From contig CAMPDV010000209.1 in assembly GCA_946699065.1 (NCBI GenBank), positions 310,001-374,000 on the forward strand: a stretch of 64,000 nt of DNA, written 5' to 3'. The DNA comes from Loxodes magnus (Eukaryota > Ciliophora > Karyorelictea > Loxodida > Loxodidae). Shown here one piece after another: positions 1,930 to 55,559 of the stretch. How positions within the stretch are numbered: position 1 is the stretch's first letter; each line of letters begins with the position of its first letter. The notes beneath the pieces are model-generated. The model was not told the origin of the DNA. It ran no database searches and saw only the letters and a program-made list of their open reading frames with translations. Made by a program: the position numbers and the translations under genes.

Positions 1930-2785
1930 AAATAACTTTAATTAAAAAAAATGGCAGAAGGTCTCAAGAAGGGTTTTTTCCAGCTTCATAGAAAAAGGAA
2001 AAAAATCAGAGACTTCTAATTCTTCCTCTAACACGTCTTCTTTAATAATATAATAATTTTCTTAGGTTCTTGAACCCCAAAATTTAGAAAAGTAAAGATA
2101 ATCTTAAATTGAATAAGAAATTAAATCAACAGAAACTGACTAAAGCAAGCGAGACTTTTTACTCCCATAGCCATGATCAAGCAACTACATGAAAAGTGGT
2201 AACTAAAAAATAATGTGGAAATAGAAAAATGATGAATAGCTAATAATAAAATAACTTATGAAATCTATCCGTAACCTCTAAGAAGAAGTTTAAATATTAA
2301 AGAAAGAAAACCAAAAATTATTATAGAAAAGTTAAAACAATGAAGAAAGATTAATGAAACAGGAAATCGAAGTGAAACTTTTGGGAAAAAAAAGAATTTA
2401 ACCTTAAACTTTAGCTGAAAATAAAATGGAATTAGAATACACAAAACCCATAGAAATAATTCCTCCCAGAAGGATCGTTAAACTGTGCTACCTGTGCAAA
2501 TCAAGATTCTATACATACAAGAGAAGCAAGATATATCTGGATAAACAGAGAATAAACAGTGAAGAGATTTGGAGAGAACTGTCAAGAATTTATGTAGACA
2601 AAGATGGAAGAATATTTAGAAGGAGGCTTTTTCAAGGGAGTGCCAGTACTTAAAAAAAACTGGGAGTCTCCGAGCTTTTATTTAAACATCAAGGAACGAA
2701 CTCTGGAGTTAAGTGTTAAGGGGTTTAAAATCCCCGGAGATACGAACACTTTAATTTAGTATATTATTATTATTATTATTAAATT
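1930..2785 (+). mobile_element. ORF1-type retroposon E1 with 3' hairpin and (TTA)n tail
   Basis: This is a short retroposon. Coding begins near the ATG at 1951 (MAEGLKKGF), and a second stretch starts at 2426 in another frame. That stretch contains LCYLCKSRF, in the place of the CCHC knuckle of sister elements, then EEIWRELSRIYVDKDGRIFR, equivalent to LYCTAEGRIYRRK in the element at 7955-8755. The ORF is followed directly by an inverted repeat (AGTGTT at 2712-2717, AACACT at 2745-2750, with a GGGG/CCCC inner stem) and a TTA microsatellite at 2760-2782. No reverse transcriptase lies between ORF and tail. The coding part is interrupted, so the copy looks dead. Element membership rests on the shared motif plus shared 3' architecture. 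Confidence 0.7.
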
Positions 2786-3059
2786 AAAAAAAACTATTAC
2801 CTCCATAAAAAAACAAAAACTTCTAAATATTTTTAACACTCTTAATACTCTTAACTCTTTTAATATTCTTAGAATTTACTTTTTTTAACACTAAAGAAAC
2901 CATCCACACACTAACTATATACGCACCCTCTCAAAACAAATTTGATAAAAATATTTGTAATTTTGCTTATAATTAATCTTTAATATATAAATATACATAT
3001 ATCATTATTATTTTAATTAATAGATAAAATATACGATAGTATTTAAGAAATTAAAGATT

Positions 3060-5250
3060 ATCCACTCTCATATTTATAAGGATTTTATCTTTTTACCATA
3101 CAAGAAATATAAGAAATTATAAAAGAAATTCCCAATGGAAAATCAGCTAATTTAGACAGAACAAAAGGTGAACTTCTGAAATATGGTGGATAATATTTAT
3201 TAATAATTCTTCATTCTTTTCTAAATAATATGCTAAGACTTGGAAGAATCCCTTAGGAATTAAATACATCGGTGATAATTCCAATATTTGGAAAAGGAAA
3301 TAAAGATGATTGGAAAAACTGACGAATTATTTCTCTTATTAATATTATTCTAAAACTATATGATAAAGCTTTAGCAAAAAGACTATACAGTCTGATTTAT
3401 TAGAGAAATTTTATTCACCCTTCATAAATGGGATTTATGAAAAACAGATAAACAACTTAATAAATTTGAATAATATAACAAATAATCGATAACTATCGGA
3501 AATGTGCTAAAGGTAAGACTAAATTGATAGCAACACTGATAGATGTTGAAAAAATGTTTGACTCAATAGAAAGAAGACTTTTGTTTGATTAACTTAAGAG
3601 AGTTAAACTACCACTTGGAATAATAATAGCCTTAGAATCATTTTATAAAAACCTAAGTTCTTCATTTATCATAGAAGGAAAGAGCACCAGAACTTTATAA
3701 TTCAACAATGGAGTTGTGTAAGGAAGTTCTCATGGACCAGTTTTAGCATTATTGTATTATGACATAGTAATTAGATATTTGGAAAGTAAAAGTAACTAAT
3801 TGGGATTTAAATGCCAGGATTCAAGTATTAGCTTTGCTTGTAGAGGATGGGCAGATGATTTTATTCTTCTTTCCAAATCTGCAAAGTAGATGTAGAATTT
3901 AATAAATGAAACAAATAAAGTTTTTGCATGAACACATTTAAAGATCAATGTTACCAAATCTGAATGCATCTAATTTCTAAAGAAGAATCAGAAGTAATAA
4001 ATTTTAAATTTATGATTAGGAAATTAACCAATTGCTTAAAAAGAACAAGTAACATATTTAGGAGTTATTCTACATCAAAAGAAGAACTTGAATCCCCATT
4101 GCATTGCATTTAAATATATAGCTGCAATGAAGAAAGCTGTTTTTTTAACTAATGAGATATAAGAATGTAACTCCTTGACATTTTAAAACTTTATGTAGAC
4201 TTTTTACATTACCTAAAGCAGAATATGGAGGAGACTTAGTACCATGAAGTATTCAAAAAGGAGTAACTGGAGTTCTGAACAGAATAGAACCAAGCATGAG
4301 ATTAATTTCATGAAAAGATTTTTAAGTAGCAACTTCAACATTTAATGAATCATGTTATATAGACCTGAATTGATTACCCTTTAAGCACATTATGGCTATA
4401 AAATTCTTCAGATTCTACCATAAAATTAAATAAGAAAGTATTGATTTTCCAAGATCAGCAATAGGCTCTCTTTTCATTAATATATGGAAAAAAGGATTTC
4501 AATACTACGATTAAGTGTAGCAATTATCAGACCTTTATAATATCGATCTGCAGAATTAATAGAATAATACCAATCTTAAAACTTTTACTAAACATATAAG
4601 AGAAAAAATACAACAATATTTCTACAAAGTAGCTACTAAAAAATTTATGAGAATGAAAACAGCTAAAGTATATACTGAATAATTTGGTAATATTTAACAG
4701 TTTCCACAAATTACTTATACGAAATTAAACAAATAGTATAGACGAGAAATTATCAGTATATATAGACTTAGAACCTAAACTTATAATTTTCGTAAGGATC
4801 TATAAGATCGTCATTACCCCATTGATAATCCCTATTGTATGTGTGAAGAGTATGAAACTTTCGAGCATATCTTTAAATGTGTGTACTATTCTAATATAAT
4901 GAATTGATTATCGGAAAAGATCGGAAATTATGACTTAAGGCGCCTTATACAATACAATCAAGAATATCTAAACTCATTTTCAAGGTCTAAATTGGAGTAC
5001 TTAGACTTATAGATCAAAATATTTCACAAGAAGCTAATGACAAGGAGACTTGAGATTCTAGAAATGGAGAAAGCAAAAAAGGAAGAAGCTAAAGATGAAT
5101 AGAAAGAAGAACTAATTAAAGAAAAATGATGAAATGTAAACAAGATTAAAAAACAGATTTAAAAACATTTACTAACGTCTATAATTGAAAGAAGCAATTC
5201 TTGCAATTAAAGACGTCAAAAAACTCTTTTAGTTTAAATTTAAATTTTAT
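3060..5250 (+). mobile_element. LINE (non-LTR retrotransposon), copy A: reverse transcriptase to 3' end
   Basis: This is a 5'-truncated LINE whose reverse transcriptase can be read with TAR = Gln and TGA = Trp. Visible in order are the RT opening (NGKSANLDRTKGELLKYGG near 3130), NWRIISLINIILKLYDKALA (near 3315), DVEKMFDSIERR, the VVQGSSHGPVLALLYYD block, the catalytic box WADDF near 3850 (WADD instead of the usual YADD), a thumb region, then a C-terminal CCHC-type finger CMCEEYETFEHIFKC near 4840. Reading needs at least one frame change, near 4150, so the copy is probably not active. The 3' end carries AAAAAACTCTTTTAGTTT, shared with copy C and with the SINE at 16611-16924. No apurinic endonuclease domain is seen, consistent with 5' truncation. 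TGA codons in this copy align with TGG in copy C at two Trp positions. Confidence 0.9.
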
Positions 5251-5833
5251 TTTAATAAGAGTTAAAATTAAGCATTTAAGTAGTCCTCTCTCAAACAGGA
5301 ATTAGATTCAACAATCACTATATTATTTATTAAATATATTCTTACGACCTTGATTTCCATTAACATTCAAATTTACCCCCTTATTATTTTTTAAATTAAT
5401 ACATTCTTTCATAATTACAATTTATATTACTAACTAAAAATAGACATAAAACAATTACCATCTATAAATAAAATATCCTATAAAGAACACTTACATACTA
5501 AAATTAATCCAAAAATTACATTCTAGAAAAATATATTTAGTACTTAAGTACCATGATCTAATATTTTTAAATAAATAACTATTACCAGCTTTAAAACATA
5601 TGTCAAATTTTAAATTACTAACTATACGATTAATAAATGCTTACGAACTATGTATTTAAGAATATTAAATGTTTTACTTACATCCTATAATTTTAAGAAT
5701 TAAATGTTTAACTTACCCACTATAGTTTTAAAGAATATTAAATTTTTAACTTACCTGTTTTAAAAATAAAAGTTTAAAAATATGACATACCTCCTTTAAT
5801 AAGATTATGTTTATTTACCATCTACATATTATT
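5251..5833. other. Spacer with a tandem ~36-bp repeat
   Basis: AT-rich spacer between the LINE and the 3' end of the RING/B-box gene. It contains no recognised gene. Its only structure is the degenerate tandem repeat listed at 5637-5795. Confidence 0.6.
5637..5795 (-). repeat. Four degenerate ~36-bp tandem units, each GTAAG...ATAG
   Basis: On the minus strand four consecutive units each start with GTAAG or a near match and end in ATAG (for example GTAAGTTAAACATTTAATTC...ATAG). They lie just past the end of the ubiquitin-like domain of the minus-strand gene. The unit limits resemble intron borders, but no spliced product can be inferred; slippage or local duplication explains the pattern equally well. 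Confidence 0.65.
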
Positions 5834-7954: not shown

Positions 7955-8755
7955 AATAATAATAATAATAATAATTAATAATTAATTAATTAATTATAGT
8001 GATCCCACCTATCAATAAGGTTCGTCACTTTTTAAAGTTTAATAGTTTTGTTAAAATTTCCATTTCCAGTTTTCTTCTGGGTCTTCTTCTTGAAGCACAT
8101 ATCTATCTGTGCTGTGTTCTCCCTTTTTTATTTTCGTAATCTTGCTTCAATCAATCTTCATTCCAAGCATTTGTTCATTTCTTCTTTGTCCTGCTATAAT
8201 CACGTCTTCTAGAATTTCATGCCCTGCGTTCATCTTTCTTCTATAAATTCTTCCTTCCGCGGTGCAATATAGTTTACTTATGGTTCTTCATAGCTTTAAA
8301 TTTTAAATTTTCTGCTTTCTGTTTTTATTGGAATTAGAAGCAGTTTCTAACTATGTGTCCTGGTCTCTTGCAGTATCAGCATCGCAGTATTTTCCTATAG
8401 GGAATATCTTTTATTGCAGGCTGTTTCTCCACATCCATAGGATCATTCCCCTGTATATTTTGCAAAAATATGCTTTCAGTTAGTTCAGCGAATTAGTCGA
8501 ATTTTTTCTCTAGCTCTTCTGTTTTTTTGTTTCCTGTCTATTTATTTTCATTTTTCATTTATTCTTATTAATTGTACATCAGGTGCTCTATTTTTCTTTC
8601 TAGTTCTTGAACTGTTCTTAGGAGGTTGAAATTTTCTTATTACAGCAATTGGAGTGCTTAAAATATATTTTATTGCTCGTAAGATGAATCCTTTTGAGAA
8701 GAGGTTTTTTACAAGAAATTTTCCATTTTTTCTCAGAATAATATATGCCAAATGG
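7955..8755 (-). mobile_element. ORF1-type retroposon E2 with canonical CCHC zinc knuckle
   Basis: Minus-strand retroposon. The ORF opens at 8751 (MAYIILRKNGKF) and carries a perfect CX2CX4HX4C knuckle, CWYCKRPGHIVRNC (around 8340-8390, its Trp encoded by TGA), then KLYCTAEGRIYRRKMNAGHE (around 8220-8290), the signature shared with E1, E3, E5, E6 and E9. The 3' end is an inverted repeat (AGTGA/TCACT, 7998-8029) followed by TAA and TTAA microsatellites (7961-7995). No reverse transcriptase is present. The 5' end lies close to the start of the LRR coding region on the other strand and may have cut that gene. Confidence 0.8.
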
Positions 8756-12639: not shown

Positions 12640-13017
12640 TAATTATGCTCAGGATTCTCTCAAAAACCATTGTAGCTTTAACAAGTTACATGCAATGAAT
12701 TATCTCCAGAAGTTGAGATAACACGATAAAGATCTGGTTTTTCTCAACTGGTCAGCTTATTCGAGCTCTGAAAAGTCATATAGGTGTTATATCAAGTATT
12801 TAGATTAATACTGATTTGAGTGTTATTTTTTCTGGATCTTTTGATGGAGCTATTAAGATATTGAATTTTAATAAGGGTGAATGTATATAGACTAAGGACA
12901 TGCAGAAGGAATAATTTCTATAGCATTGAGTGGTGAACGTAGATGGGTGGTATCTGGAGGATATGACGAAACTGTGAGAAAGTGGAAGGTTGCGAGTTGA
13001 GCAATAAAGTAATTTTA
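12640..13017 (+). pseudogene. WD40 gene fragment, last three to four blades
   Basis: The fragment encodes WIISRSWDNTIKIW, GQLIRALKSHIGVISS, VIFSGSFDGAIKILNF and, after one frame change near 12895, GHAEGIISIALSGERRWVV and YDETVRKWKVAS followed by TGA. These are WD40 blades. They match the last blades of the minus-strand WD40 gene at 28600-29602 almost residue for residue (GQCIRTLYGHSDIVSSIQIS; VIFSGSYDHLIKIWNFNTGE). The 5' part is missing and the LINE copy B boundary lies just upstream, so this is a decayed paralogous remnant. Confidence 0.8.
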
Positions 13018-15229
13018 ACATTTTAAATTTTGCAATTAAAGTTGATTATGCTAATTATATAAAGTCATTTGATTAATTGTTCTTTGGGAGTTGGCAAGAT
13101 TCAAAGGTTTATTAAGTTTTTTATTAAAGTTAAAATTATTAATGTTCTAAGTTATTTAGTTATTAAAAAAGGTAGTCTGTTCTTACATAAATTAAGATAA
13201 AGGAAAATAATTAGTTTATATAATTGGGTTTTGAAACTTTTTCGAAGTGGGTTCGGCAGTAAGCGATTGGGTATTATATTTTTTATTTAATGTATTTAAT
13301 AAAAAACGGTTAATTAGGACGATTCAAGTTATTTAATTAACTTTGAAAGATTTTTTCGATTACTTTATTTTTTAATTAAAGGTTTATAAAAAAATTTACT
13401 TCAAGCAGAATTTACAAGTTAGTTTTTACTTTTTATCTAAGTTATGGAATGAAAGAAAATTTTTGAGGTAGACTGGTAAAATTATCTTTTTAAGAATATT
13501 TAATTTATTTTTGCATTTAATATATTCTTTAATTTGAATTAGTATTTACTTTTTGAGCTAAGTGTAGTTATAATTTTTAATATTAAGTGTCGTTTTTTGC
13601 TTCAAAGAGAATTTTTTATTCAAAGCAATTTTGATAAATTCATCTTATTTCTATGTATAATTTTTTCTCTATAAGAAGAATAATTTTTGCGATAGTAAAA
13701 AGTTGCTATTTATTATTTTCTTCCTAAAATTTTAGAATTTTAAAGTTTTAAATTGCAAAAATAAAAAAATCGTTTTTGCTCAACGTTTTATACTAGAGGA
13801 CATTTTTCGGATGGAATAAAGTTAGGGAATCGGGATGAAAAAAGTTAAATTTAATAAAAAATTCAAAAAATGCAAACTATAAAAATTTTTGATTTTGATT
13901 TTAAAATTTTTTTTAATTTTGGTTTTGAAAAAAAGGAAAGCAAGAGATAAGAATTTATATGACATTAACTTGTGAAAAATCAAGAAAGAGATTTAAAAAG
14001 GGAAATTTAAAATAGAAGGATTGGAAATCGGAGAGTTTAAAGGTGGCTTTAATTTTGAAGAAATTGTAAAAGTCTTCTTTTGCGAAGAGATTTAAAAGAA
14101 AGGCGATTTAGGAACATAATCTTTTTTTTAATGAGTCTTAACTGAAAATAATGAATTTTGTGAAAAAAATCTTAAAAAGCAGAATAAGCAAAATTACTTA
14201 AAAAAATTATAAAATTAACTTAACTCTTAAAAAATAAAAAAATTAGAAGGAACAAAACTTAACTATAAAAACTAATTAATAAAAATAACTTCTTAAACAA
14301 AGAATCTTTTTAAATTAAAAAAGATTTTCAGTCTAAATACTCAAAAATAAAAAGTTACAAATACTATTTTGGGTTTAAATACTTTTCAAAAAAAATCTCG
14401 AGAAAATTTTATAAAAATAAGAAAGAACAAATTTCTAGAGAAAGTAAGGCAAAGAAGTGAAATAAAATAGAGCTTCAAAACAATTTTAAGGAAATAAAGC
14501 AATTATAAGTAAAAATGATAAGATTTCTAAGTAAAGTAAAGTAATAATTTAAATGAAAATTTTTATTAAAAAAGAACCTTAAAAATAATAAAATGATATC
14601 CTCTATCTTATAATACAGAAAATTAAAAATTTTTATCTTTCGAAGCCAAAAATTATACTTTTAAATTACATTTCTTTTAAAAAAAGAAAAAATCACCTAA
14701 GGCTTGAAAAAAAATTCAAAAATTTTTGATTATGAATATAAAGCTTAAACAAAAATAAAAGATTCTATTTAAATTATCATTAAAACTAAAAAAATGACAA
14801 AGAAAATAATTGTTCTCTTATTTTGTTAAAATGTATTAGAAAAGAAAAAAATCTTATAAAAGATAAATTTTAAAAGGCAAAGCATTAAAATAAAGCAAAA
14901 TAAAAGTTTTTTGAAAAATAACTATACAATATTGCCGTTTTTAATTTAGAGAAAAATGAGTCTAAAAAGATAAAAAATTAAAAATAAATAATAAAACGAA
15001 AATCTTTTGAGATGAAACTACAAAATTACATGCTTTTTAGTATTTTAAAGATAAAAGAAAATAAAAATAAATTTAAAGAAGTAAGAGCGAAAGAATTTAC
15101 ATGAGTAATAAAGTGAAGAAGAAAAGTAAGAAAAAAAATAAGAAAATCAATTTTAATGAATTCTTAACAGTCTATAGTAATCAAGCTTTAATTGTTTGGA
15201 AAATTAAGGATGAAAGTCTTACCAAGGAA
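13018..15229. other. Long AT-rich spacer, no gene recognised
   Basis: The left half is T-rich and the right half strongly purine-rich on the plus strand. No domain, RNA gene or repeat family was recognised. Short Lys/Asn-rich readings exist in every frame and are not evidence of coding under this genetic code. Confidence 0.5.
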
Positions 15230-15445
15230 GGTAAAATATCCGAGTAAGAATTAGTAATTAAGTCATTAGCATCATATCAGTCAAACTTTCATACTGCTAA
15301 CGTGAACTCTCGGATAAATTAAGCTTGTCCTTCCGAGTTTGTTCACCCTTCCCCATGTTGTTATCTAGTGTGAGATTACTCGCAATGTAGTGTACACTCA
15401 CAAGATTACCTATTAGTTCTCTTGATAGCGACTGACATCCATTTT
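15230..15445 (-). repeat. Family H1 retroposon, partial copy
   Basis: Diverged H1 copy with the conserved blocks CAGTCAAACTTTCATACTGC, GAGATTACTCGCAATG and GACATCCATTTTATTATAT. It begins at GAATTAGTAATTAAGTCATT, as the copies at 28340 and 55340 do, and lacks the 3' hairpin. Confidence 0.75.
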
Positions 15446-15459
15446 ATTATATAAAGTTA

Positions 15460-16255
15460 AAGTTAAAAAGCCTTGTTAAAGCCTAAGTAGCCAGCCATCT
15501 GACCTAAACTATCAGCTTGTCTCCATTAGTTTGTCATGAATTCCTACTAGGCTTAGTTAGGCGGTGTAGTTTTGATCTTGCACGTAGCGTTCCTAATTAT
15601 TTATCCAAGGATTAAGATTAAAATTAAAGAATTTTTTTCTATAAATTTTTCCGCTTTATGTTGGATATATCCTAAATAGTTTTCTAAAACTATCTTTTTT
15701 ATTCTTTCTTTAAATTTCGCTTAGTTAGTAACATTATTTTCATTGGTGTTATTTATTGCACACGTAGTATTTTATTCTTCTTTCAACTATTATTCCTGTA
15801 ACACTTACTTATTTAAATTTACTAGTTATTTTAAATAATTTTTTACTGTTTATTTTAATTTTAGGCTTCATTTTCTATTTCCATAGAATCTGATTGATTC
15901 TTTTAAAACAAAAATAGCGTTACCTGATTTATTATTAAATTTAAAAAATTCTTTATTCCAGTTTGTTTTCTATCTCTTATGATGATTAATATTTTTTCAC
16001 AAGTAAAGATGTTATTAGTTTTTCTAATTTTTTTATTTTTCAGTGAGGCATCTATTTTTGAATATAAACTCTTTTAATGACTTAGATAATATTTCTATTT
16101 GAGTTTGTGTTGGAAGTTTTTTAATTCTTGATTTCCAAGTGGTTAATGTTCGTCATATCAATCATATTTCTCACTTTTACTCATTGTAATTATTTCGCTT
16201 TTTTATTTTTTAGAGAATTTTCCTGTTTAAATATTTTGTTCAAAGTTCTGTCATT
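15460..16255 (-). CDS. Hypothetical Lys/Gln/Asn-rich protein, possibly a retroposon ORF
   Basis: A minus-strand frame from an ATG near 16245 (MTELWTKYLNRK) stays coherent for roughly 260 codons and ends with a GC-richer, well-formed stretch (QEFMTNQWRQADSLGQMAGY) beside the H1 copy. No CCHC knuckle or GRIYRRK motif was found and no domain was recognised. Its position between repeats and its basic composition would fit another ORF1-type retroposon or a small host gene. Several in-frame TGA codons near the N-terminus lower confidence. Confidence 0.35.
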
Positions 16256-17045: not shown

Positions 17046-17118
17046 ACCCGGCTAGCTCAGTCGGTAGAGCGTCAGACTCTTAATCTGGTGGTCGTGGATT
17101 CTAGCCCAACATTGGGCG
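17046..17118 (+). tRNA. tRNA-Lys (CUU), probably a degenerate copy
   Basis: A 73-nt cloverleaf with D arm (GCTAGCTCAGTCGGTAGAGC), anticodon arm CAGACTCTTAATCTG with anticodon CUU, and a T-run (17119-17123) as Pol III terminator. The T arm reads GATTCTAGCCC where the B-box consensus is GGTTCGAGCCC, and the first acceptor pair is A-C. These changes in the internal promoter and acceptor stem suggest a pseudogene or a weakly expressed copy. Confidence 0.7.
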
Positions 17119-17156
17119 TTTTTAATATTATATACTTATTAGAAATAACAAAATAG

Positions 17157-17228
17157 TTCCGCATCCGGGACTTGAACCCGGGTCTTTCGGGTGAGAGCCG
17201 AATATCCTGACCACTAGACTAATGCGGA
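17157..17228 (-). tRNA. tRNA-Glu (CUC)
   Basis: Complete minus-strand tRNA. Acceptor TCCGCAT pairs with ATGCGGA, the D arm contains TAGTCTAGTGGTCAGGATA, the anticodon loop CTCTCAC gives anticodon CUC, and the T arm GGGTTCAAGTCCC is a good B box. All stems pair. It lies 38 bp from the tRNA-Lys locus in convergent orientation. Confidence 0.95.
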
Positions 17229-17334: not shown

Positions 17335-18425
17335 GTTTAGTATGCATATATCTAATATAATTTAAGGAAGATTAATAAAGTGATATCATCATTATTAGGC
17401 TTATCACTGATAAGTTTATAAGTTGTTTTATGAGGTAATGGGATTACTTCATGCGATCATAGGATCATTCCCATCTTCTGCAGAGTTCATTTCTTCTATT
17501 ACAAAACGGTTTGCGCAAATTTAACCTTTATTGACCACAAGAGAATCTAGCTTTATTCTCACTTTGGTCCAAATATTTCTTTTTTTCTTTTTTTTTGTGC
17601 GTTTATTATATCTAATAGTAATTAGTTTCCACTGTATATCTTTTTCCTGTAGATCTTTCCTTTTGGAGAGTAGTATAATTTAATCAGATTATTTCATATC
17701 TTTTAGATACTTAGTTCTTACTTCTTCTAAAAATACTAGCATCTTTAAAAATATACCCAATCTGCTGACGATAGAAGCATCTTGTTTTACAATTCTTAGA
17801 ACCATGACCTAATTTTTAGACATTTTTGACATTTTTAGAATTTTTTTCTACTTGAAAGAAATTTTTAATTATGTTCTTCAATTATCATAGATTGCTATTA
17901 GGATTGTGATTGAAAAGAAATTATGCAGAATTGTTCGGCTTATTAATTTCTTCTATTTTTTACTCCGTTTTTTCCAGTTCATAATTAACTTGCGATGTTG
18001 AAGTTTAAGTGTTAATTTCCGTTTTAAATCAACGGTTTACATTTTATAGTTATTGTAAAGTAAAGATTAGAGAAATATTTTGCTAATTTAAGTAATAGAT
18101 TTATTTTTTAAGTTTTTATTTACTACTTCAAGGGAGTAAATTTCAATGGCGAGTTTTATTAGTCGAAATTCTGTTATTTTTCTCAAGTAATTTCTTAGGA
18201 GTTATTATTTTATTTAGGAATAATAAATTAAAGTGGATACGCCATTATTAGGTTAATCTCTTTTGTTCAAATGTAATTGCTTTAGTAGAATTTCCAATAC
18301 TTTCTTTGGATTTACTCAAATATAAATTGTTCTTCTTTTTCTTCATCTTACTCTAATTTTCAATCCTCTTTTTCATCTTTGCTTATTAAGCGTCCTTTAG
18401 TTCTTCCAGCATTTTTTTCAATATT
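17335..18425 (-). mobile_element. ORF1-type retroposon E6
   Basis: Minus-strand element whose knuckle reads KCQKC and then, in a neighbouring frame, KLGHGSKNCK (around 17790-17830). It is followed by GYIFKDASIFRRSKN, equivalent to the GRIYRRK motif. Upstream is a coiled-coil-like stretch (MLEELKDAQQAKMKKRIENQ). The 3' end is a perfect 7-bp inverted repeat, AGTGATA/TATCACT (17379-17408), then a short AT tail. The ORF is interrupted. Confidence 0.65.
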
Positions 18426-18900
18426 GTATTATTTAATTAATTATTAATTACTATAATCCAGTACTTAGTGCAGTTTTCTTCTATAGATTTTAACTTCTTT
18501 TGAGCAATATATTTAGCTCATTATAGTCAAAATATTTTCCTCTATTCTTTATTTTATTTGAAATATTAGCATTAGATACGAGATGTCCTTTCTTCTTATA
18601 GAATCAATATCTAATATGTTTTTTCATTTCTAGACATAAATTGATTTTTAATTTTTCTAATTTAAAACAGATTTAAATGATTTAATTTTATAATGTTATC
18701 AATTATATATAAGATAAACAAATTGAATCTCTATTCCATTTATTTTAGTTGGAAATTTACCTATTCCACTTCCGATTTGCTGCTCATTTCCTATTTGATT
18801 GATTGTTTCTTTCAAAATCATCGCCTCTGCTTATTATAAGACCTTATTTTTTTATTTCCAGGAATTAAGATTTTAAATTCCGATTCTCTGATAATAGTTG
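18426..18900 (-). mobile_element. ORF1-type retroposon fragment E6b
   Basis: Minus-strand fragment with IRYWFYKKKGHLVSNA (around 18565-18620), which aligns with RCWYCKRPGHIVRNC of E2 but has lost knuckle cysteines. The 3' side ends in AATTAATAATTAATTAAATAA. It abuts E6 in the same orientation, either as a tandem insertion or as part of one longer element. Confidence 0.45.
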
Positions 18901-19405
18901 TTAAATCTCTTGATAGTATTTAATAATTATGATTGTTTATTTTCCTTTTAAAGAAAGGGATTAATCTATTATATATATAGTATTTATATTTTTAAATTGA
19001 ATATTTAAACCATTTTTAATAATATTTTAATTCAAATTAAATCCTTAACTTCATTTATTAAAAACAAACCTATTATAATTATAAAATTACATAAATTAGA
19101 TTTAGCAAAGATAATTCATTAAAGTTGAAAAAGCAGCTTTTATTACTTATAATAAAAACGATAGTAATTATTAGCAAATTAATAGTAAAATGAAAGATAT
19201 TTTAAACTTATTAATATTTTATCTTTGAATCAATAAAGTTAATTATAATAGTTTTAGAATTTGTTTCTACTTTATGATTATGCTATAAAAATTAAGGTTT
19301 TTTAGCAAAAAAGTTTATTTTTAGATTATGTTTTAATTTATGAAGTAAAAATGAAAAAATTTTTTTTTATTCACATAAAATTTAATTTATTAAATATAAT
19401 ATAAA
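18901..19405. other. AT-rich spacer, nothing recognised
   Basis: Low-complexity AT-rich sequence without recognised coding or RNA features. Confidence 0.5.
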
Positions 19406-19850
19406 ATGGATGTCGGCCAAATCAGAAAAAATAGTGAGAAATCTATGCAGTGCATACTGCATTGTGAGTAATCTTGCACTAGATGCTAAAACGGGAAAGG
19501 GTGGATAAGCTCAGAAGAGACAAGCCTAACTTGCCCGAGGGTTCTCTCTAGCAGTATGAAAGTTTGAATGACGGGCCTGTTAATGACTAATTACTAATTC
19601 TTATTTTGACCTTATTCAAAAGACTGAAGCATTTGATTCAAGATTTAAGAATAATTTTTAATTAGAAGATTCCCCATTTGGAGAAGCTGAAATGAATCAC
19701 GGACGAATAGAGAGAAATCAAAAAGCATGAGAATACGTTTTTTTAATATTAAATATTAATAGTGAAAAAGCTTTGAGCCAACGAGGTGTACGTGCTTTAT
19801 AGCAATATTTTTTTTTTTTTATTTAATATATAAAATATTTTTTACGTATT
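19406..19850 (+). mobile_element. Family H1 retroposon, full-length copy
   Basis: Plus-strand copy that gives the element's orientation. The 5' end is ATGGATGTCGGCCAAATCAG; the conserved inner block runs to GGTTCTCTCTAGCAGTATGA, followed by a body region (GGAGAAGCTGAAATGAATCA), an AATATTAAATATTAATA stretch, the 3' hairpin (AAAGC...GCTTT, about 19767-19799) and a T/A-rich tail. It is about 400 bp long. No clear protein is encoded. The shared 3' hairpin groups it with the ORF1-type elements. Confidence 0.8.
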
Positions 19851-35528: not shown

Positions 35529-35885
35529 AAACCGCCATAGTTGTTCGAAGGTGAACAACAAGGTTATCTTCATCAGAGGTTGGGGAAGTTAAGTATCCAT
35601 AATCGACTTTATTTCTTCCTCTGCTTTGGTGATGCAATGAGACACAATCCTGCCATGTCCTTGGACCTCCAACAAGTATTAAAGATTACGAGTATTCTTA
35701 AATTATATCAGTATTGAACATTTTTATCAATACTGAATTATTATACCAGTATTGAACAAGGTCTACCAGTATCTGATAATTTTATCAGTAACAAACATTC
35801 TTGTCAGTATGAAACATTTTTTTTTAAAGAGCTGCGCACCAATGAGAGTGCTACTCGCTCTATAATCAAATTTATTTATTTATTT
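35529..35885 (+). mobile_element. Family H2 retroposon, full-length copy (inverted relative to 29755-30115)
   Basis: Plus-strand copy: ACCGCCATAGTTGTTCGAAG at the 5' end, TTGGGGAAGTTAAGTA, GATGCAATGAGACACAATCC, the 20-bp tandem array (35706-35820), the 3' hairpin GAGCTGCGCACCAATGAGAG then TGCTACTCGCTC, and the (TTTA)n tail to 35885. It follows the kinase gene. Confidence 0.85.
35706..35820 (+). repeat. Imperfect 20-bp tandem array inside H2
   Basis: Six consecutive units on the pattern TATCAGTATTGAACATTTTT (ATCAGTATTGAACATTTT, ATCAATACTGAATTATTA, ACCAGTATTGAACAAGGT, and so on). The same array is present in the other two H2 copies, so it belongs to the element. Confidence 0.75.
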
Positions 35886-40000: not shown

Positions 40001-40529
40001 TTTTTTCTATTTTTTCTATTTTTTCTATTTTTTCTATTTTTTCTATTTTTTCTATTTTTTCTATTTTTTCTATTTTTTCTATTTTTTCTATTTTTTCTAT
40101 TTTTTCTATTTTTTCTATTTTTTCTATTTTTTCTATTTTTTCTATTTTTTCTATTTTTTCTATTTTTTCTATTTTTTCTATTTTTTCTATTTTTTCTATT
40201 TTTTCTATTTTTTCTATTTTTTCTATTTTTTCTATTTTTTCTATTTTTTCTATTTTTTCTATTTTTTCTATTTTTTCTATTTTTTCTATTTTTTCTATTT
40301 TTTCTATTTTTTCTATTTTTTCTATTTTTTCTATTTTTTCTATTTTTTCTATTTTTTCTATTTTTTCTATTTTTTCTATTTTTTCTATTTTTTCTATTTT
40401 TTCTATTTTTTCTATTTTTTCTATTTTTTCTATTTTTTCTATTTTTTCTATTTTTTCTATTTTTTCTATTTTTTCTATTTTTTCTATTTTTTCTATTTTT
40501 TCTATTTTTTCTATTTTTTCTATTTTTTA
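40001..40529. repeat. Near-perfect 9-bp satellite (CTATTTTTT)n, about 58 copies
   Basis: 529 bp of CTATTTTTT repeated with no interruption seen. The plus strand would read as endless Phe-Phe-Tyr, but nothing upstream supports a gene. The high homogeneity implies recent expansion. Confidence 0.98.
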
Positions 40530-40917: not shown

Positions 40918-41450
40918 GTAGGTAATCCGGTGCAGTTATGTCTACACTATAAGTACTCTTGCAATAGATGACACCACAAACAAGAAAGGACGGGCTCTTT
41001 GTGTGATAAGTCTTACTTGCTTGAGGGTTCTCTCTATCGGTACTAGAATTCGACTAGAGGGAACCGAAATCCATATCTCAGAAGTTATCCTGATTTTACA
41101 TGTTACTAGTCTGATCTGGAATTAGAAAACAACAAAGAAATGACTGAGATCATAAATAATTATTATTTAGAAGAATTTAACTTAATTAGGAAATTTGATA
41201 CAAATATTGCAATGTTCTCTAACTTCAGCCTTTGTAAAAATTACAAAAATTTAAAGAGTGAAGGCAATCAATTTTGATTATAAAAACGGAGAGAAGAAGA
41301 AAATAAACAAAGAGACCAGATGAAGCTAGAAACATTTCTAGCCTATTATTAGCAATTAAATTTTGTTTTTTATTTTTTCGTGATGAACCAAACAATGGTG
41401 ATACCACGCTAATTTAATTAATTAATTAATTTATTTATAAAAACTTAATT
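40918..41450 (+). mobile_element. Hairpin-tailed retroposon with H1-like 5' block
   Basis: Positions 40918-41050 match H1 (GTAGGTAATCCGGTGCAG, GAGGGTTCTCTCTATCGGTA), but the body after 41050 is different. It reads coding-like (RRKQTKRPDEARNIS near 41310) and ends in a nested inverted repeat (CGTG 41379-41382/CACG 41405-41408, with ACCA/TGGT inside) and a TTAA microsatellite at 41411-41440. So the H1 5' block is joined to a different 3' body. Confidence 0.6.
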
Positions 41451-41454: not shown

Positions 41455-43195
41455 TTTTTTAAAATAATGCGATTATAGTTTAAATTTATCTCGCTGCATT
41501 TAGTCATTTTTTAGTTTTCACTAATAGTTCTTTAATCTCTTGATCTTGAATTATTTTTCGGCATAATTTAATAAAAGTCTTTCTATTAGTTAGCTGTTCG
41601 AATATTTCAAAGTTTTCTCTTATTCAACTCTTCTAAAATACAAGTTAGCCTGTTTTGCTAATAATTAAAAAAAACTTTTCTCATATTTTAAAAGAAATTC
41701 TAAATGTAGTTCCTCATCAATAGATATCAAATCTAAATCTGATTTAAATTCCTGAATTTTTTTCCTTCTGCTAAGACTGTAGATTAAATTTTACTCTACT
41801 TGTACATTTATCGATTTTACAAATACAAATTTAAATGCTTGATATTCGTGGAGATATTTCAACCTCTTCCTCGCTAGTCTCTAGATTGCTCTACCGGCTA
41901 AATATAAAATTTTAAATGGCTTTACAATTTTTCTCCTTGCATATAGATGTTTTTGAATTTTTCTTTCACATTGATGTTAGATATCTTTTTTCTTGAAAAT
42001 CTCCCCAAATTTTTGCAATATAATATCTCTCTTTCTTTTGATAGTTTTAGTTTGTATTGTATTTTTTTTCCACTACTTCTACTAATTTCAATATTCTTAC
42101 ATGAAACTGAAAATTTTTTCTTGCACTTTTTCTCTAGATGCATTTGAGAATTATAGTAATAACATCTTTTTGCTTCTCTTTTAGCTTAAAATCTTGAGTT
42201 TTTACAACTTCTATTTTAATTGGATCATTTCTTTATTCCTTCAGTTCCATTTATCGCTGCAATTTTTAGTACCTTTCTTCTATTTTTTCTAACTTCTTAA
42301 TCAGTTCTTTCTGTCTCTATTATTAGTTTTGAAATTAACTTTTCTGTTTTGTCGAATTTTTAGGGATATGTTAAGGTCTCTACTTAGAATATGGGTTGTG
42401 ATTCTATTTCCTCTATTAATTCAAGTTTTTTCATTAACTTCTTATTTTCTTTCTTTAACCTTTTGACTCCTACAGGAGGTCCAGCATCTTTTAAATCAGC
42501 CAACCATAGCTTATTTATTACTATATGGTGAGATTAGAGACTTCCAAGCGCATTATATTTTTAGCCTATTTTCTAAGTTTTTCTTCAGAAGTGGGAAACT
42601 CGATTTGATGGATGACCTTTTTTATCCCGTTTCCTGGACCTAGTCTTTCTAGGATGCCATTAACTCCTGGCTTTTAGGAGCCGCAAAGAATGTTGGTTTG
42701 ACATATTTTCTTTATGCTATACAATAATTATTTATCATTTTCATAATTATCAATTGAATCTAATAGTAACTTAAGTTTAATGGTAAAAGGAGTTATAATA
42801 TATCTTCCTAATTTTAGCTTAAATTATAATAGGCTTCATCTCCAAGTTCAATTTTAGATTGCTTGATTTTCTTCCTTCATTATTAAAATAATTTTGCAAA
42901 AATTAGAGCAAAATGTTCTAACTATGTACTATAATTATAAGTTTATATCAGAAATGGTATTTTATCTATTTTTAATATTCTAAATATTTCTAAGTAAATT
43001 ATGTAAAAAAGAAGTATCTTATGTCTTGCATAATCAATTGCTTCTATAATTAAATTAGTTTCTTAAGTTAAATATCTAAATATTTTGGTTTTTATTTTAA
43101 AGAAAATCTAAATTTAGATTTAAGTCTAGTGAGAGTAAGTCTGTATATAATTTAATCAATTACATTACATCATAAGATTATCCTTAATATCATTA
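41455..43195 (-). pseudogene. Copy A of an unknown gene (paralog of 50370-51330), split by a retroposon
   Basis: 41455-41824 and 42736-43195 align collinearly with 50635-50995 and 50996-51460, where the two halves are continuous. Shared readings include QLLAKQANLYFRRVEQEK and KNYQWKLK (41480-41660) and the GDEAYYN/RKIYYNSFYH region (about 42790-42860). The 911-bp insertion at 41825-42735 is retroposon E5. Function unknown. The gene is broken by the insertion. Confidence 0.75.
41825..42735 (-). mobile_element. ORF1-type retroposon E5, inserted in gene copy A
   Basis: Minus-strand insertion flanked by a near-identical 13-14-bp repeat (ATTTATCGATTTTA on the left, ATTTATCATTTTCA on the right). 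The ORF reads WLADLKDAGPPVGVKRLKKE, MKKLELIEEIESQPIF, a knuckle-like CYYYNSQMHLEKKC (second Cys is Tyr), then EILYCKNLGRFSRKKISNIN, the element's version of the LYC..GRIYRRK signature. The frame is preserved for more than 200 codons, so this is one of the better-kept copies. No reverse transcriptase. Confidence 0.75.
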
Positions 43196-43239: not shown

Positions 43240-44115
43240 AAAAAAACTCTTTAAACGCCTTTTTCCGCTTTTGGCGTGTTTTCAGTTTTTCTTCTGTTTA
43301 GTTCTAAAAATCAAAATATTGTGGCTCCTCTAAAAATATGCTGTGTATGGAGACGTATTTTTCTGGTACAATATTAGATCTACCTAAGGTTGAAGTTTTC
43401 TTCTTGTTCACTCTTCCACAGGATGCAGTAAATGCAATTTTGCATTTTTCTTAAATCTTGTATTCTTTGTCTTTATTTCTTTATCGCTTACTGCTCCTGA
43501 TAGGTTTAATATCTCAAGCAACTCCTCTATTTTCTAAGAAAGTTGTACATTGTCTATAGAGGTGCTGAGCACTGCCACATAGGCAGCATTATTTTCTGAT
43601 GCTTGGCTTCTGGTATTTTGTGGAAAGAGGTATTATAAGTAAGGAATGCCCATTCTCTTATAGTTCCATCGTTTCAAGATTTATTATTTTGCTACGGTTA
43701 CTCTTTGTCTTACTTTACTTCTTGAGATCTGTTAACTATTTCTTAGGCCTTTCACTTCGTCTTTAAGTCTCTGGATTTCCTTCTCAAAAGCAGGCCTGGA
43801 ATTTCTAGTTTAGAACCAACCCATTATGGTATAGTTTCTTAGCATAATTAGTTTGAACTTTGAGCCTACTCACCTCCTGTCTAAATACAGCAATTATCAT
43901 TGCTATTACTTCAGATTGTTCTAGCTACTACGACTTAGTCGTTAAGAATTCCTTGACCTATGGTATTTTTTTATTATTTTTTCTTATTGTGCTTTTCACC
44001 GGTTAGAGGGGTATCTATTTAAGTATAGGGATGCTCGAAGGAAGGTTTGAATATTGCTTGCTATTAGGGCTATGTCGCAGCTTGATTAACTTCTTCAATT
44101 TTCTTCTCAGTCTTT
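43240..44115 (-). mobile_element. Coiled-coil ORF1-type retroposon E8
   Basis: Minus-strand ORF in two frames: VNQAATQPQQQAIFKPSFEH and QIDTPLTGEKHNKKKQQKNT upstream, RQEVSRLKVQTNYAKKLYH, then EKEIQRLKDEVKGLRNSQQI (coiled coil), NYKRMGIPYLQYLFPQNTRS, SQKIEELLEILNLSGAVSDK and a basic C-terminus. The ORF is followed by an inverted repeat, ACACGCC/GGCGTTT (43253-43281), as in other hairpin-tailed elements. No zinc knuckle is seen. Similar in style to E7. Confidence 0.55.
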
Positions 44116-46021: not shown

Positions 46022-46700
46022 TGCATGATAATAATAATAATATATTAAAATTACGTGATTTTTTTTGATTAGTCACTAATTAGAGTTTGCAAAACTTTTA
46101 GCCTCAACAAGTTTCGTAGTTGAATTCTTCTGGCTTTTCTGGGTCGTAAGATCTTATTACTTTCTTGTTTTCTTCTCTAAATAAGGATTGAAAATCAAAA
46201 CTATATTAATATTTTCTAATTGTCTCGGTGCATTCATTATATTTTGAACTTCTAAGTTGAGTTAAAATCTTTCTTTCTAACACAGTCTTCCATTTGGCAT
46301 GTAGTATATCTTACGATTTTAAATACCTTTCTTTATTGCTAAGTCTAATTTTTATTAATTTGTAGTAATTTAATGTATTGTAGCCATATTTTTTGTAGCA
46401 TCAACTTTTAAATTTTTCTTTTTTATGTGAAGAATTAGGAAGAATTCTGTTTTTCTCTTGACTTTGGATTAGTTTATTTGTTGATCTAGACCCGCTTCAA
46501 TTGTTAAATCTCTGATTTTGTCTTAAACTTCTTTCAATTGTATTGAATTACATTTCCATCTATTATAAGAGATGCTACTAGTTAATTCTTATTTAAAGTT
46601 CTATTTATTGATCAAAAAATTTGAATTAGTATTTTGTAGATTATTTAAAGCTAAGCTTTCTTAGAATAGATAGATCCAGATTAATAATATCTAAAATATA
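46022..46700 (-). mobile_element. ORF1-type retroposon E9 with hairpin and (TAA)n tail
   Basis: Minus-strand ORF of about 200 codons: KCNSIQLKEVQDKIRDLTIE, FFLILHIKKKNLKVDATKNM, and RKIYYMPNGRLCQKERFQLN, the version of LYCTAEGRIYRRK here. It ends with GTGA...TCAC (46055-46076) and a TAA microsatellite at 46027-46043, the same order as in E1. Confidence 0.65.
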
Positions 46701-46884: not shown

Positions 46885-47105
46885 TTTTTTAATTATAGAG
46901 TACATAGCTCTTCAATAGGGTGCATCTCTTTAAAAAGTCAATTTTTAATCGCTTTAAATCGATTACAGGTAGATTTCCAACCCATGATAAAGAGATTAGC
47001 TTGGTCCAACTTTTAGAAAGCTTGCTTCTCAGCTAGTTCATCTTTAGGAAATTCTTCTCATAACCCTTAAGAGGACAAGTCACCTTATTTAAATTAAATT
47101 ATTAT
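46885..47105 (-). mobile_element. Hairpin-tailed retroposon, relative of E4
   Basis: The 3' hairpin (TTATAGAGTACATAGCTCTT then CAATAGGGTGCATCTCTTT) is followed on the element strand's 5' side by CACCTTATTTAAATTAAATT, the same end as the element at 54757-55135. About 210 bp, internally shortened or diverged. Confidence 0.6.
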
Positions 47106-47109
47106 ATAT

Positions 47110-47615
47110 TTTTTTAAAACCGCCATAGTTGTTTGAAGGTGAACAACAAAGTCGTCTTCATCAGAGGTTGGGGAAGTTAAGTACCCATAATCGACTTTAT
47201 GTCTTCCTCTGCTTTGGTTTGGCCTCGAGACATAAGATTCTTAGACCTTCAACACGGGCTTAGTTTATTTTTAATTCTGGAACGAAAAAGAAATAATATT
47301 GCGAGCTTCATCAGAGGTGGGGAATTTAAGTAGCCATAGTTGACACATATCGTCCTCTGCTTTGGTGATGCAATGAGACACAATCCTGCCATGTACTTGG
47401 ACCTCCAGCAAGTATTAAAGATTACGAGTATTCTAAAATTATATCAGTATTGAACATTTTTATCAGTACTGAATAATTATACCAGTATTGAACAAGGTCT
47501 ACCAGTATCTGATAATTTTATCAGTAACAAACATTCTTGTCAGTATGAAACATTTTTTTTTAAAGAGCTACGCACCAATGAGAGTGCTACACGCTCTATA
47601 ATAAAATTTATTAAT
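47110..47615 (+). mobile_element. Family H2 retroposon, copy with internal duplication or chimera
   Basis: It starts ACCGCCATAGTTGTTTGAAG. The CATCAGAGG...GGGGAA...AAGTA...CTTCCTCTGCTTTGGT segment occurs twice (47155-47215 and 47305-47365), separated by about 90 bp of unrelated sequence. It then continues through the 20-bp array to the hairpin TACGCACCAATGAGAGTGCT then ACACGCTCTATAAT and a TTTA-type tail. The other two H2 copies contain the segment once. Confidence 0.8.
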
Positions 47616-48275
47616 TATTTATTTATAATAAACTATTAATGAATAAATTATAAATATAAATCTTTAGTAATACAATTTTTTTATAAATTATGAATGTTTA
47701 CCCTATTAAATAATCAATGTCTTCTACATAAAAAAGAAAGAACATTCTTTCAAGTAAAGCTGTAAAACATTAGAAATATCTTAAATATAAAACTAATAGT
47801 AAAGAATATAAATAACTTTTAATTGCTTATATCTTTGAACTATTAACTCTAGTTTTATTACTCAAATCTATTTATAGAAGCTAGAATCTATATATTGTAA
47901 GTCCTTTAAAAAAAAATAAAAGATAGACTTGATAAACTTGGTTGTAAATTATAAAATGTTATTAGATAAACTTTCAATTTCTAGTTTTAATATTATCTAT
48001 AGTTTGATATAATACAAATAGAAATTTATAACCATTGGATTCGAAGATTAATACCATTATTAGCTACTAATATTTTTGATTAAGCAAAGCAAACTTTTTG
48101 TTTATTTAGAGAATAAATGAATTTTTATAATTTGATTGCAAAAGCTTATGATAATTAGAATAAATAGATTTAAGAGATTAAATAAGGATTATAATTAGTA
48201 ACCAAATATTCTTTCAAAAATTAATTTTATCTTTACTAAAATATTTAAATTAATTCATTACTAAATTTTTTAAAT
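47616..48275. other. AT-rich spacer
   Basis: 3' flank of the membrane-protein gene; nothing recognised. Confidence 0.45.
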
Positions 48276-50369: not shown

Positions 50370-51330
50370 TATTTTTCAATTAAAAATGTCTATTAGTTAT
50401 TATCGAGATCTACCCTTTAAATAAACAATTGAGGAGTAATTTTTCTCATTTGATTAAGAGCTATTTGTTTTTGTCTATTTATAATTTGTTCTATTTCTTG
50501 GTTTTGTATTATAAAGTATTCTAACCTTTTTAAATTTTAAATTTCTTCAATTTTAACCAAGTTCTGCATATCATTTTTTCGGTTTAGTTCATCTTATTTC
50601 TTGCTTTTTAGAATGCTTTCGTTCGTTAGAGATTTCTTAAAATAATGCGATTATAGTTTAAATTTATCTTGCAGCGTTTAGTTTTTTTTTAGTTTTCACT
50701 AATAGTTCTTTAAATCTCCCGATCTTGATTTATTTTTTGGCATAAATTAATAAAAGAAGTCCTAGTTAGTTAGCTTTTTTGAATACTTCAAAGCTTTCTC
50801 TTATTCAACTCTTCTAAAATACAAGTTAGCCTGTTTTGCTAATAATTAAAATTTATTTTTTTCTCATATCTTAAGAGAAATTCTAAATATAGTTAGATAT
50901 TAAAAGATATCAAATTTAATCTGATTGAAATTCTTTACCTTTTTATCTTTTGCTAAGACCGTAGACTAAATTTTACTCTTCCTGTACATTTATCAATTTT
51001 ATAGATGTCAGTTGTATCTAATAGTAGTTTAAGTCTAATGGTAAAAGGAGTTATAATATATCTTCCTAGTTTTAGCTTCAACTTTATATTTGGCTTTATC
51101 TCCAGGCTTAATTTCGAAAATGTTTGCTTTTCTTTCTTCATTATAAAAGTTATTTTAGCAAAAATTGGGGCAAAATTGTCTAAAAATACTCTATAGCCTG
51201 AAAGCTTATATCTGAAATGGTATTTTATCGTCTTCAATATTCTAAATAATTTTTAAGCAAGTTTTAAAAAAAGAAGCATCCAATTGCTTGTATAACCAAC
51301 TACTTCTACAATTAAGTTACTTTCTTAATT
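50370..51330 (-). CDS. Conserved protein of unknown function, copy B
   Basis: Minus-strand coding region, paralog of the split copy at 41455-43195. Readable parts are DDKIPFQIQAFRLQSIFRQF, NEERKANIFEIKPGDKAKYK and VEAKTRKIYYN (51040-51230), then a Lys/Gln-rich helical half: QLLAKQANLYFRRVEQEKAL (around 50800), KNYQWKLKKNQ, and EIEQIINRQKQIALNQMRKI near 50450. Preservation of the same residues in copy A argues for real coding. The frame seems to shift near 51050, so either the gene has an unseen intron or this copy is also damaged. Start and stop are not defined. Confidence 0.5.
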
Positions 51331-51583
51331 TAAATAATTAAATGTTTAGTACTGATATTAAAGATAATCAGAGCTTAGAATTTAAGCCTAGCCAGAGCAA
51401 GTCTGTATATAATTTAAGCAATTAAATTACTCCATAAGATTATCCTTAATATCAGTCTATCAAAGCAATTGAATGAATGAGAATTATTTGTGCTTTCTAT
51501 CACTAAACAATAACTAGACAATTCAAGATATTAAAGCAGCACTTAAACGTACATTCTATACCTTACAATTCTTAATAGAGCAA

Positions 51584-54475: not shown

Positions 54476-54757
54476 ATTTCAAGTTTATCTATCAACATGA
54501 AACTATTTTCTTTTGACTAGCAAGTGAAGAATAATTGCCATATCTTTAAGATCGTGAAGGAGTAAAATTACTGCCTAAAAGGGTATTTCCAAATAAAGTA
54601 CATAATCAAGAAATAAACATTTAAACATATTTGGCAATACATAGCTATATAAAAGTAGTGTATTACAGTTCTAAAAATAGAAAGAGAAAATTAGTAAATC
54701 TAGTGCTAATTATTTCAGAGAGGGATATAAAATTATAAGTTTAAGCATTTTACACAT
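54476..54757 (+). pseudogene. Truncated host ORF of unknown function
   Basis: About 94 codons from ATG 54476: MHYDFKFIYQHETIFFWLAS, EGVKLLPKRVFPNKVHNQEI, YLAIHSYIKVVYYSSKNRKR. The reading is protein-like, then runs into the (TAAA)n tail of a minus-strand retroposon at about 54757. Two retroposons fill the next 800 bp, so the gene was probably cut off. No family recognised. Confidence 0.4.
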
Positions 54758-55135
54758 AATAAATAAATAAATTCGATTATAGAGCGCGTAGCACTCTCGT
54801 TGGTGCGCAACTCTTTAAATTAATTTTATTTAATGTCGAAATTTTTTTTTATAAGCCTCTCTTTCCTTGTTTCCTCTTCCTGCGGTACATCCCTGTAATT
54901 TTTCCTTCCAAAGCATAGGATGCAATATGCGATTACGGGTACATTTCCCCGACCTATTATGAAGAAAGTTCCTCCTGGCATTCAGAGTAATCCATCTTGT
55001 TAAGTCTTTCTTCTCTTGTTATTGGTTTCTCTTCTGTCAATTTATCCTCCGTACGCGCTCATTTTTTTGTTGCCTTACTGGGCCTTCAAGCAGCATCTGA
55101 AGGAGAAGGCTTTTCACCCTATTTAAATTAAATTA
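54757..55135 (-). mobile_element. Hairpin-tailed retroposon E4
   Basis: Minus-strand element: TAAA-type tail (54757-54774), hairpin GAGCGCGTAGCACTCTCGTT then GGTGCGCAACTC (54780-54814), and a body that on the minus strand contains CILCFGRKNYRDVP, reminiscent of a decayed zinc knuckle. 5' end near AATTTAATTTAAATAGGGTG. The next element (H1) is inserted directly at its 5' end. Confidence 0.65.
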
Positions 55136-55559
55136 TAAATAAATAAAAATTATTATAGAGCGCGTAGCACCTCATTGGCGCGCGGCTTTTTCAATATTAA
55201 TATTTAATATTAAGGAAAATGTTCTCAAGTTTCTTGCTAAAATTCTAGAGGTCCGATGAGTCATGTCAGCTTCTCCAAACGGGGAGTCTTCTTATTAAAA
55301 ATTATTCTAAAATATTGAGTCAAATGCTTCAATCTTCTTGAATGGGGTCCAAATAAGAGATAGTTATTAAGTCGTAATTAGAAGGCCCGTCAGTCAAACT
55401 TTCATACTGCTAGAGAGAATCCTCGGGGCAAGTTAGGTATGTCTCAACGGAGCTTATCCACCCTTCCCCGTGGTGGCATCTAGTGCGAGATTACTCGTAA
55501 TGCAATATACACTGCACCAGATTACCTACTAGTTTGGCTGACGTGGCCGACATCCATTA
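55136..55559 (-). mobile_element. Family H1 retroposon, full-length copy
   Basis: The best-preserved H1 copy: tail TAAATAAATAAAAATTATTA, hairpin GAGCGCGTAGCACCTCATTG then GCGCGCGGCTTTTT (55150-55186), body with CGGGGAGTCTTCTTATTAAA, conserved block, and 5' end GGCCGACATCCAT. About 410 bp. Confidence 0.85.

Follow-up and report, generated by a model that had tools for sequence, protein, structure and literature searches.

A 64,000-nucleotide stretch of the Loxodes magnus genome (C209:310001-374000, hereafter the window) holds several short units that each carry a single open reading frame (ORF) and, in the clearest cases, end in a hairpin followed by TTA repeats. We analyzed these units and their relatives across the 705,730,643-base assembly, the scope of all our genome-wide searches, and conclude that four families, E1 to E4, are probably non-autonomous, hairpin-tailed Gag-only retroposons copied in trans by long interspersed nuclear elements (LINEs).

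The ORF-bearing units measure about 750-860 bp and encode a coiled coil, a CCHC zinc knuckle and a GxIYRKK motif, without a reverse transcriptase (RT). RT stretches in this genome are open only if TAA and TAG are read as Q and TGA as W, the karyorelict code; because this code has no unambiguous stop, an 'open' frame here is one free of frameshifts and nothing more. The units and their tails lie in the window as follows, with target site duplications abbreviated as TSDs and with E-values from domain profiles or, for tails, from a covariance model (CM) of LINE-B-type hairpins.

1945-2781 (+): E1 element, with a leader, an ORF from the ATG at 1951, coiled coil, zinc knuckle and GRIFRRR
2711-2750 (+): hairpin of this E1 copy, then (TTA)n; AATTAAAAAAAA flanks the element on both sides (TSDs)
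7955-8733 (-): E2 element, with an ORF from the ATG at 8726, coiled coil, CCHC and GRIYRRK
7984-8029 (-): tail of this E2 copy, a LINE-B-type hairpin (CM E 4e-4) with TTA repeats
15524-15790 (-): further ORF element, with a knuckle (first C lost) and a GKIYRKK domain (E 2e-23, the copy itself being in the profile)
17370-18218 (-): E3-related element, with a GKIYRKK domain at 17478-17828 (E 5e-34, copy in the profile); 5' end approximate
17370-17408 (-): tail of the E3-related element, a LINE-B-type hairpin (CM E 0.094)
18219-19050 (-): second ORF element, adjoining the previous one, with a domain at 18378-18599 (E 1.2e-5); 5' end approximate
18219-18261 (-): tail of that second element, a LINE-B-type hairpin with a decayed TTA-like tail (CM E 0.22)
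25629-26332 (+): E4 element, with coiled coil, CYICERNHCWRNC and GQIYRKK; predicted 3' hairpin

The window copy of E1 has a knuckle without its H and last C (domain profile E 2e-17), and that of E2 is frameshifted. The original prediction had counted at least ten elements with this ORF or its remnants, most of them ending in an inverted repeat and a TTA or TTTA tail. Our profiles recover the domain in 1930-2785, 7955-8755, 17335-18425 and 25355-26323 (E 2e-5 to 5e-34), and the third of these intervals resolves into two elements, 17370-18218 and 18219-about 19050. The same search with the CCHC-GxIYRKK domain returned six window domains, including one (15524-15790) that the earlier list lacked. 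By contrast, 41825-42735, 43240-44115 and 46022-46700 contain motif-like remnants only, without support from the domain profiles, and 54757-55135 and 27545-27885 leave the class as SINE-like units (after short interspersed nuclear elements, SINEs) without a supported ORF. The predicted ending is clear in the 1930-2785 and 7955-8755 units and decayed at 18219, whereas at 17370-18218 and 25629-26332 the hairpin is not followed by a clean microsatellite.

A Gag-like protein in units without RT

Throughout E1-E4 the protein keeps one order: a coiled coil comes first, then a CCHC knuckle, of which several E3 copies have two, and then a region of the form W..L.KLY....GRIYRRK.Y.G. Profiles place the domain at 2462-2689, 8045-8402, 15524-15790, 17478-17828, 18378-18599 and 25988-26272 (E 2e-5 or better); the best window value is 5e-34, while the reversed window reaches only 0.21. 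Three of these six domains are themselves in the profiles and E1 and E2 are represented there through sister copies, so that 18378-18599 is the sole independent match. Pfam finds a zinc knuckle at the cut-off in the window E2 and below the cut-off in locus L035, and no other family near the cut-off in the ORF elements. A sequence search of PDB gave weak matches to nucleocapsid knuckles and to one terminal uridylyltransferase, and the predicted structure of the knuckle-GxIYRKK region (mean pLDDT 60, pTM 0.33) gives a weak hint of a helix, a beta hairpin and a second helix.

Between families the domain retains 21-66% amino acid identity, with silent sites near saturation in many pairs. The ratio of nonsynonymous to synonymous change (dN/dS) between families is mostly 0.2-0.35 where measurable: 0.20-0.26 for E3 against W17 (five pairs), 0.21 for W15 against W26 and 0.35 for W15 against L077x; for E2 against E3, silent sites are saturated. 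Within E3 it is 0.67-2.27 where dS can be measured, on very few changes. Such values are what one expects of source lineages under constraint whose copies decay freely.

No homology was detected between this ORF and ORF1 in the LINEs that we sampled. Three ORF-element profiles had no significant match in eight LINE sequences (ORF1 of LINE-A, LINE-B and LINE-B2, and pieces of LINE-C) or in the LINE proteins of loci L038-L040 and L071; the best match among LINE proteins, to LINE-B ORF1 (E 0.008; single domain 0.04), has the knuckle in common. By eye, ORF1 of LINE-A, LINE-B and LINE-B2 consists of an RRM-like part and CCHC knuckles.

The predicted absence of RT held throughout. LINE proteins lie inside the unit in none of 45 loci (13 E1, 14 E2, 10 E3 and 8 E4), and no RT was seen between ORF and hairpin in any of them; three loci (L001, L002 and L068) have LINE-protein matches, all flanking. 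In the LINE-B2 copy L074, an element with the motif GEIYKKK lies within the endonuclease (EN) domain.

These units have spread as discrete copies. All 40 scored E1 places, drawn from 1310 first-look candidates, align over almost their whole length; the window copy is one of them, and the other 39 have 94-95% identity. Three further matches are partial and inverted (74-75%). The exact 40-nt E1 tail occurs 172 times in the genome and the exact 42-nt E2 tail 152 times, and the reversed pattern of each occurs 0 times. Twelve non-window E1 copies read in a single frame from the terminal ATG, and among the 12 of 14 E2 loci that could be parsed for their start, nine are single-frame and three, including the window copy, are frameshifted. 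E3 (L041 and L080-L089) and E4 (window 25629-26332 and L091-L098) come from protein searches with 7123 and 7721 candidates, respectively; L093-L098 of E4 are near copies of one locus. Some E2 copies on C20, C1257 and C1499 are tandem segmental duplicates in steps of about 13 kb or 28 kb and not independent insertions, and in the E3 copies L080 and L081 a variable in-frame microsatellite, (KML)n or (KCQ)n, lies just upstream of the knuckles.

E1 insertions carry TSDs. Direct repeats of 12-17 bp (mean 14.7), lying beyond the 5' leader on one side and the (TTA)n tail on the other, flank the element in all 10 automatically parsed loci of 13 fetched, compared with a mean of 7.8 and a maximum of 13 in 90 mismatched flank pairs, 10 of which reach 10 bp or more. 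By eye, these repeats start beside a TTA in the target, which is the unit of the tail.

Hairpin tails of the ORF elements and the LINEs

Searches with RT yielded LINE-A, LINE-C and LINE-B with its relatives B2 and B3. LINE-A ends in GAGCTGCGCACC-AACGA-GGTGCTACGCGCTC followed by TTTA repeats; one example of the LINE-B clade ends in CGTGGTTAACC-AATTAA-GGTAGCGCCACG followed by TTAATTAATT. The hairpin of the LINE-B clade, with its TTAATT repeats, is shared between RT-bearing elements and ORF elements, and two loci (L077 and L079) run unbroken from LINE-B2 RT to the hairpin, TTAATT and TTA.

We built a CM from the tails of five RT-bearing LINE-B-clade elements and applied it to 51 of 89 loci. The model finds the E2 3' end in 13 of 14 loci at E<=1, 11 of which pass E<0.05, and the E3 3' end in all 11 loci, each at E<0.05. 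It gives no tail match in the two LINE-A and four LINE-C loci supplied to it. In the window its four best matches are the end of a SINE-like element (41379-41423), the E2 tail (7984-8029) and the ORF-element ends at 17370-17408 and 18219-18261; the remaining six matches (E 0.5-1.8) have AT-rich sequences and look fortuitous. The basal stem differs between LINE-B (CGTGG/CCACG) and E2 (AGTGA/TCACT) with pairing kept, and E3 and LINE-B2 tails are predicted to fold into the same layout. Counts of paired positions across the five LINE-B tails are not evidence of covariation: they contain no double change and do not exceed those in shuffles. Beside the E1 copy of L003, what appears by eye to be a remnant of the ORF type has a near-LINE-B2 end and TTA repeats (CM E 3e-5).

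The 3' stem-loop of E2 and E3 is thus common to the RT-bearing LINE-B clade, and elements with the same hairpin as these LINEs are probably copied by them. An RT-bearing partner with the same kind of hairpin tail, which the original prediction had proposed to look for, exists for E2- and E3-type elements and was not found for E1, whose tail is a hairpin unlike the LINE-B type. At its other end, the first 105 nt of E1 are homologous to the LINE-A leader, with local scores of 53 and 40 against two LINE-A copies, where 2000 dinucleotide shuffles each reached maxima of 31 and 32. The corresponding comparison of LINE-A with E2 did not rise above chance, and an Rfam search for structured 5' ends on six loci returned none at E<=1.

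Decayed candidates and other repeats in the window

The remaining features that touch on these elements are a LINE fragment, three decayed candidates and several SINE-like units.

3062-5299 (+): LINE-C fragment (RVT_1, E 3e-30), starting about 270 bp past the downstream TSD of E1
41820-42729 (-): probable decayed member, a coiled-coil frame with CYYYNSQMHLEKKC and GRFSRKK (by eye), not profile-significant
43240-44115 (-): decayed ORF with a strict CCHC at 43547-43588; candidate member, not profile-supported
46022-46700 (-): decayed candidate (domain E 0.23) with a TTA tail and weak hairpin; putative member
54757-55135 (-): SINE-like element with the LINE-A hairpin and a TTTA tail, without a supported ORF
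27545-27885 (-): decayed SINE-like element with a LINE-A-like hairpin (by eye), without a supported ORF
41379-41423 (+): end of a SINE-like element, a LINE-B-type hairpin with a TTAATTAATT tail (CM E 8e-7)

We considered the LINE-C fragment as the missing half of E1 and rejected it, since it lies beyond the downstream TSD and has its own, different 3' hairpin. Its family gave 147 scored RT matches, and almost all of them have 86-88% identity to the fragment. At 41820-42729 the candidate interrupts a repeat whose copy at 50630-51477 is intact, and the flanks of the insertion have 14 aligned bases in common, the first seven identical.

The tail of 54757-55135 is that of LINE-A: 29 of 30 LINE-A loci (all except L008) match it over 57-68 bp, with 90-95% identity. 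The head of the element has no Rfam match. A SINE-like family of about 440 bp occurs at 28107-28533 (-), 55129-55574 (-), 19387-19834 (+), 15239-15454 and 1-173, three copies of which end in a LINE-A-like hairpin by eye, and a related head is joined to a LINE-B tail in an element whose end lies near 41423. Stretches 88-95% identical define a second SINE-like family with a LINE-A-like tail, at 29746-30133 (-), 35507-35884 (+) and 47089-47628 (+).

Beside the ORF element at 17370 lies a convergent pair of tRNA genes, tRNA-Lys(CTT) at 17046-17118 (+) and tRNA-Glu(CTC) at 17156-17228 (-), the only matches in an Rfam scan of the window. Elsewhere, positions 40001-40528 consist of TTTTTTCTA in 58.7 perfect copies, and 126-bp tandem repeats with a related stretch (34020-34861, 29010-29525 and 12672-13063) encode, by eye, WD40-like repeats of 42 amino acids.

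Probable mobilization in trans and its precedents

By analogy with stringent LINEs, we propose the following cycle as the most likely. The unit structure, the absence of RT, the E1 TSDs, the hairpin that E2 and E3 have in common with RT-bearing LINEs and the between-family constraint on the domain are observed; RNA binding by the protein, mobilization in trans, target-primed reverse transcription and the mode of priming are inferred from them and from the analogy. An element RNA would carry a single ORF starting at or a few bases from its 5' end, and the Gag-like protein, with its coiled coil, one or two CCHC knuckles and GxIYRKK, may coat the RNA of its own element. The RNA would end in a two-stem hairpin and short AT-rich repeats, and a LINE with a tail of that type would supply the ORF2 protein (EN and RT), which would bind this hairpin in trans. 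Copying into the nicked target would then proceed by target-primed reverse transcription, probably primed at a TTA-like target and leaving TSDs. E2, E3 and their relatives would draw on the LINE-B clade through its tail, and SINE-like elements on both LINE-A and LINE-B tails. E1 combines a LINE-A-like 5' leader with a private tail. The earlier idea of a half-LINE system survives insofar as the elements are ORF-only, probably mobilized in trans and likely recognized by the hairpin; it needs correcting for the ORF, which shows no detectable relation to the ORF1s of the LINEs that we sampled.

Several observations weigh against this proposal. For E1, the CM matches none of 13 tails, a pattern excluding two E1 stem bases, meant to find an E1 helper, found only a decayed E1 copy, and the direct repeats contain a few bases also compatible with the TTA tail. 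E2 repeats are short and no better than the control, reaching 10 bp or more in 2 of 12 parsed loci as against 14 of 132 mismatched pairs. The CM E-values are modest (window 17370, 0.094; window 18219, 0.22; L062, 0.51; L063, 0.39), and the E2 locus L070 is missed. On the LINE side, TTA repeats follow only two of five modelled LINE-B tails (L077 and L079; L078 has TTCA), the RT-bearing relative L075 is without such a tail, its similarity to L074 stopping before it, and the exact 29-nt LINE-B2 hairpin occurs only five times in the genome, so that the sampled LINE-B2 copies are unlike a young, abundant family. Some between-family dN/dS values are also high (E2-W15 0.91, E2-E1 0.62, L077x-E3 0.60-0.67 and W15-E3_L086 0.56), and dN/dS rests throughout on 42-76 codons, with dS saturated in many pairs.

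Where the elements came from is a further question. We tentatively consider a separate karyorelict Gag-only lineage, not derived from a LINE ORF1, in which selection acts on the element's own nucleocapsid and the LINE-B tails and LINE-A leaders were acquired. Somewhat doubtful is the explanation that the units are internally deleted LINEs, which kept the ends and the ORF1 of an unsampled LINE clade and lost EN and RT. The E1 leader in common with LINE-A and the E2/E3 hairpin in common with LINE-B would fit such deletions, and HAL1, an L1 derivative in the available text of PMC5753468, is a precedent; however, the ORF profiles match no sampled LINE ORF1 significantly, and RT remains inside 0 of 45 loci. 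This explanation concerns origin more than present mechanism.

That the units are SINE-like passengers of the usual kind, with an ORF that arose by accident or has fallen out of use, is very unlikely. Open frames come cheaply in a code without an unambiguous stop, and SINE-like elements with the same tails do exist, but the domain stays recognizable across families (21-66% identity) despite near-saturated silent sites, the coiled coil and knuckles recur from E1 to E4, and the between-family codon pattern makes this reading unlikely. Processed retrocopies of a host gene family, with constraint belonging to the host genes, would account for the pseudogene-like within-family dN/dS near 1 but are highly improbable given E1 and E2 copies that start at the ATG, E2 and E3 ends in a LINE-type hairpin instead of poly(A), and exact-tail counts that exceed 150 in both E1 and E2.

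Our best reading of the Gag-only retroposons is that they work like HAL1 or HeT-A but with LINE-type tail recognition, and that they are not a new superfamily. To call them an undescribed retroposon superfamily was too strong, because ORF1-only, RT-dependent precedents exist in these two systems. HAL1, according to the available text of PMC5753468, codes for ORF1p alone and has several origins, and it resembles our elements as a non-autonomous element with only an ORF1/Gag-type protein. It derives from L1 and codes L1 ORF1p, whereas no relation of the E1-E4 protein to ORF1 in the LINEs sampled here could be detected; L1 has poly(A) at the 3' end, whereas E1-E3 have a structured hairpin and AT-rich repeats. 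HeT-A has CCHC knuckles and takes its RT from elsewhere. Its functional parts, as listed in the available portion of PMC3357415, are a 5' untranslated region (UTR), Gag and a 3' UTR only, which is the likeness to the elements here. HeT-A is telomeric and, by its coordinates in that source, about 6 kb long with a long 3' UTR, whereas the Loxodes elements are dispersed, about 750-860 bp long and, in E1, flanked by TSDs.

For tail recognition the closest parallel is in stringent LINEs (UnaL2, ZfL2 and the CR1 clade), whose ORF2 recognizes a 3' stem-loop and whose partner has the same tail, as the accessible part of PMC4176376 describes. The common tail of LINE and partner is the likeness to such LINE/SINE pairs; the difference is that the Loxodes passenger codes for a protein under selection. 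SINEs code for no protein and are defined by a Pol III promoter head without an ORF.

In L. magnus itself, the available text of PMC11441545 reports a 706-Mbp macronuclear (MAC) assembly with 915 families of interspersed repeats, for the most part unclassified when weighed by copy number; among its repeats are at least two complete LINE families with EN and RT (5-6 kb; rnd-1_family-27 and -19). These families, which probably include LINE-A, are autonomous, whereas the ORF elements are not. That text mentions neither ORF-only elements nor tail sharing and has no word beginning 'sine', and searches of open-licence PMC full texts gave, among the matches listed, no account of ORF-only retroposons in Loxodes.

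Why a retroposon mobilized in trans keeps a Gag-like gene is an open question for HAL1 and HeT-A as well. Loxodes offers a natural system for it, with several families, a candidate helper clade identified by its hairpin and, for comparison, SINE-like elements that have the same tails but lack a supported ORF. If the Gag-only lineage is indeed separate, it would be a satellite with its own coat and a borrowed polymerase, drawing on at least two LINE clades. More broadly, these elements would account for some of the large share of Loxodes repeats that is unclassified, and their tails suggest that stringent LINE tail recognition may operate in a ciliate.

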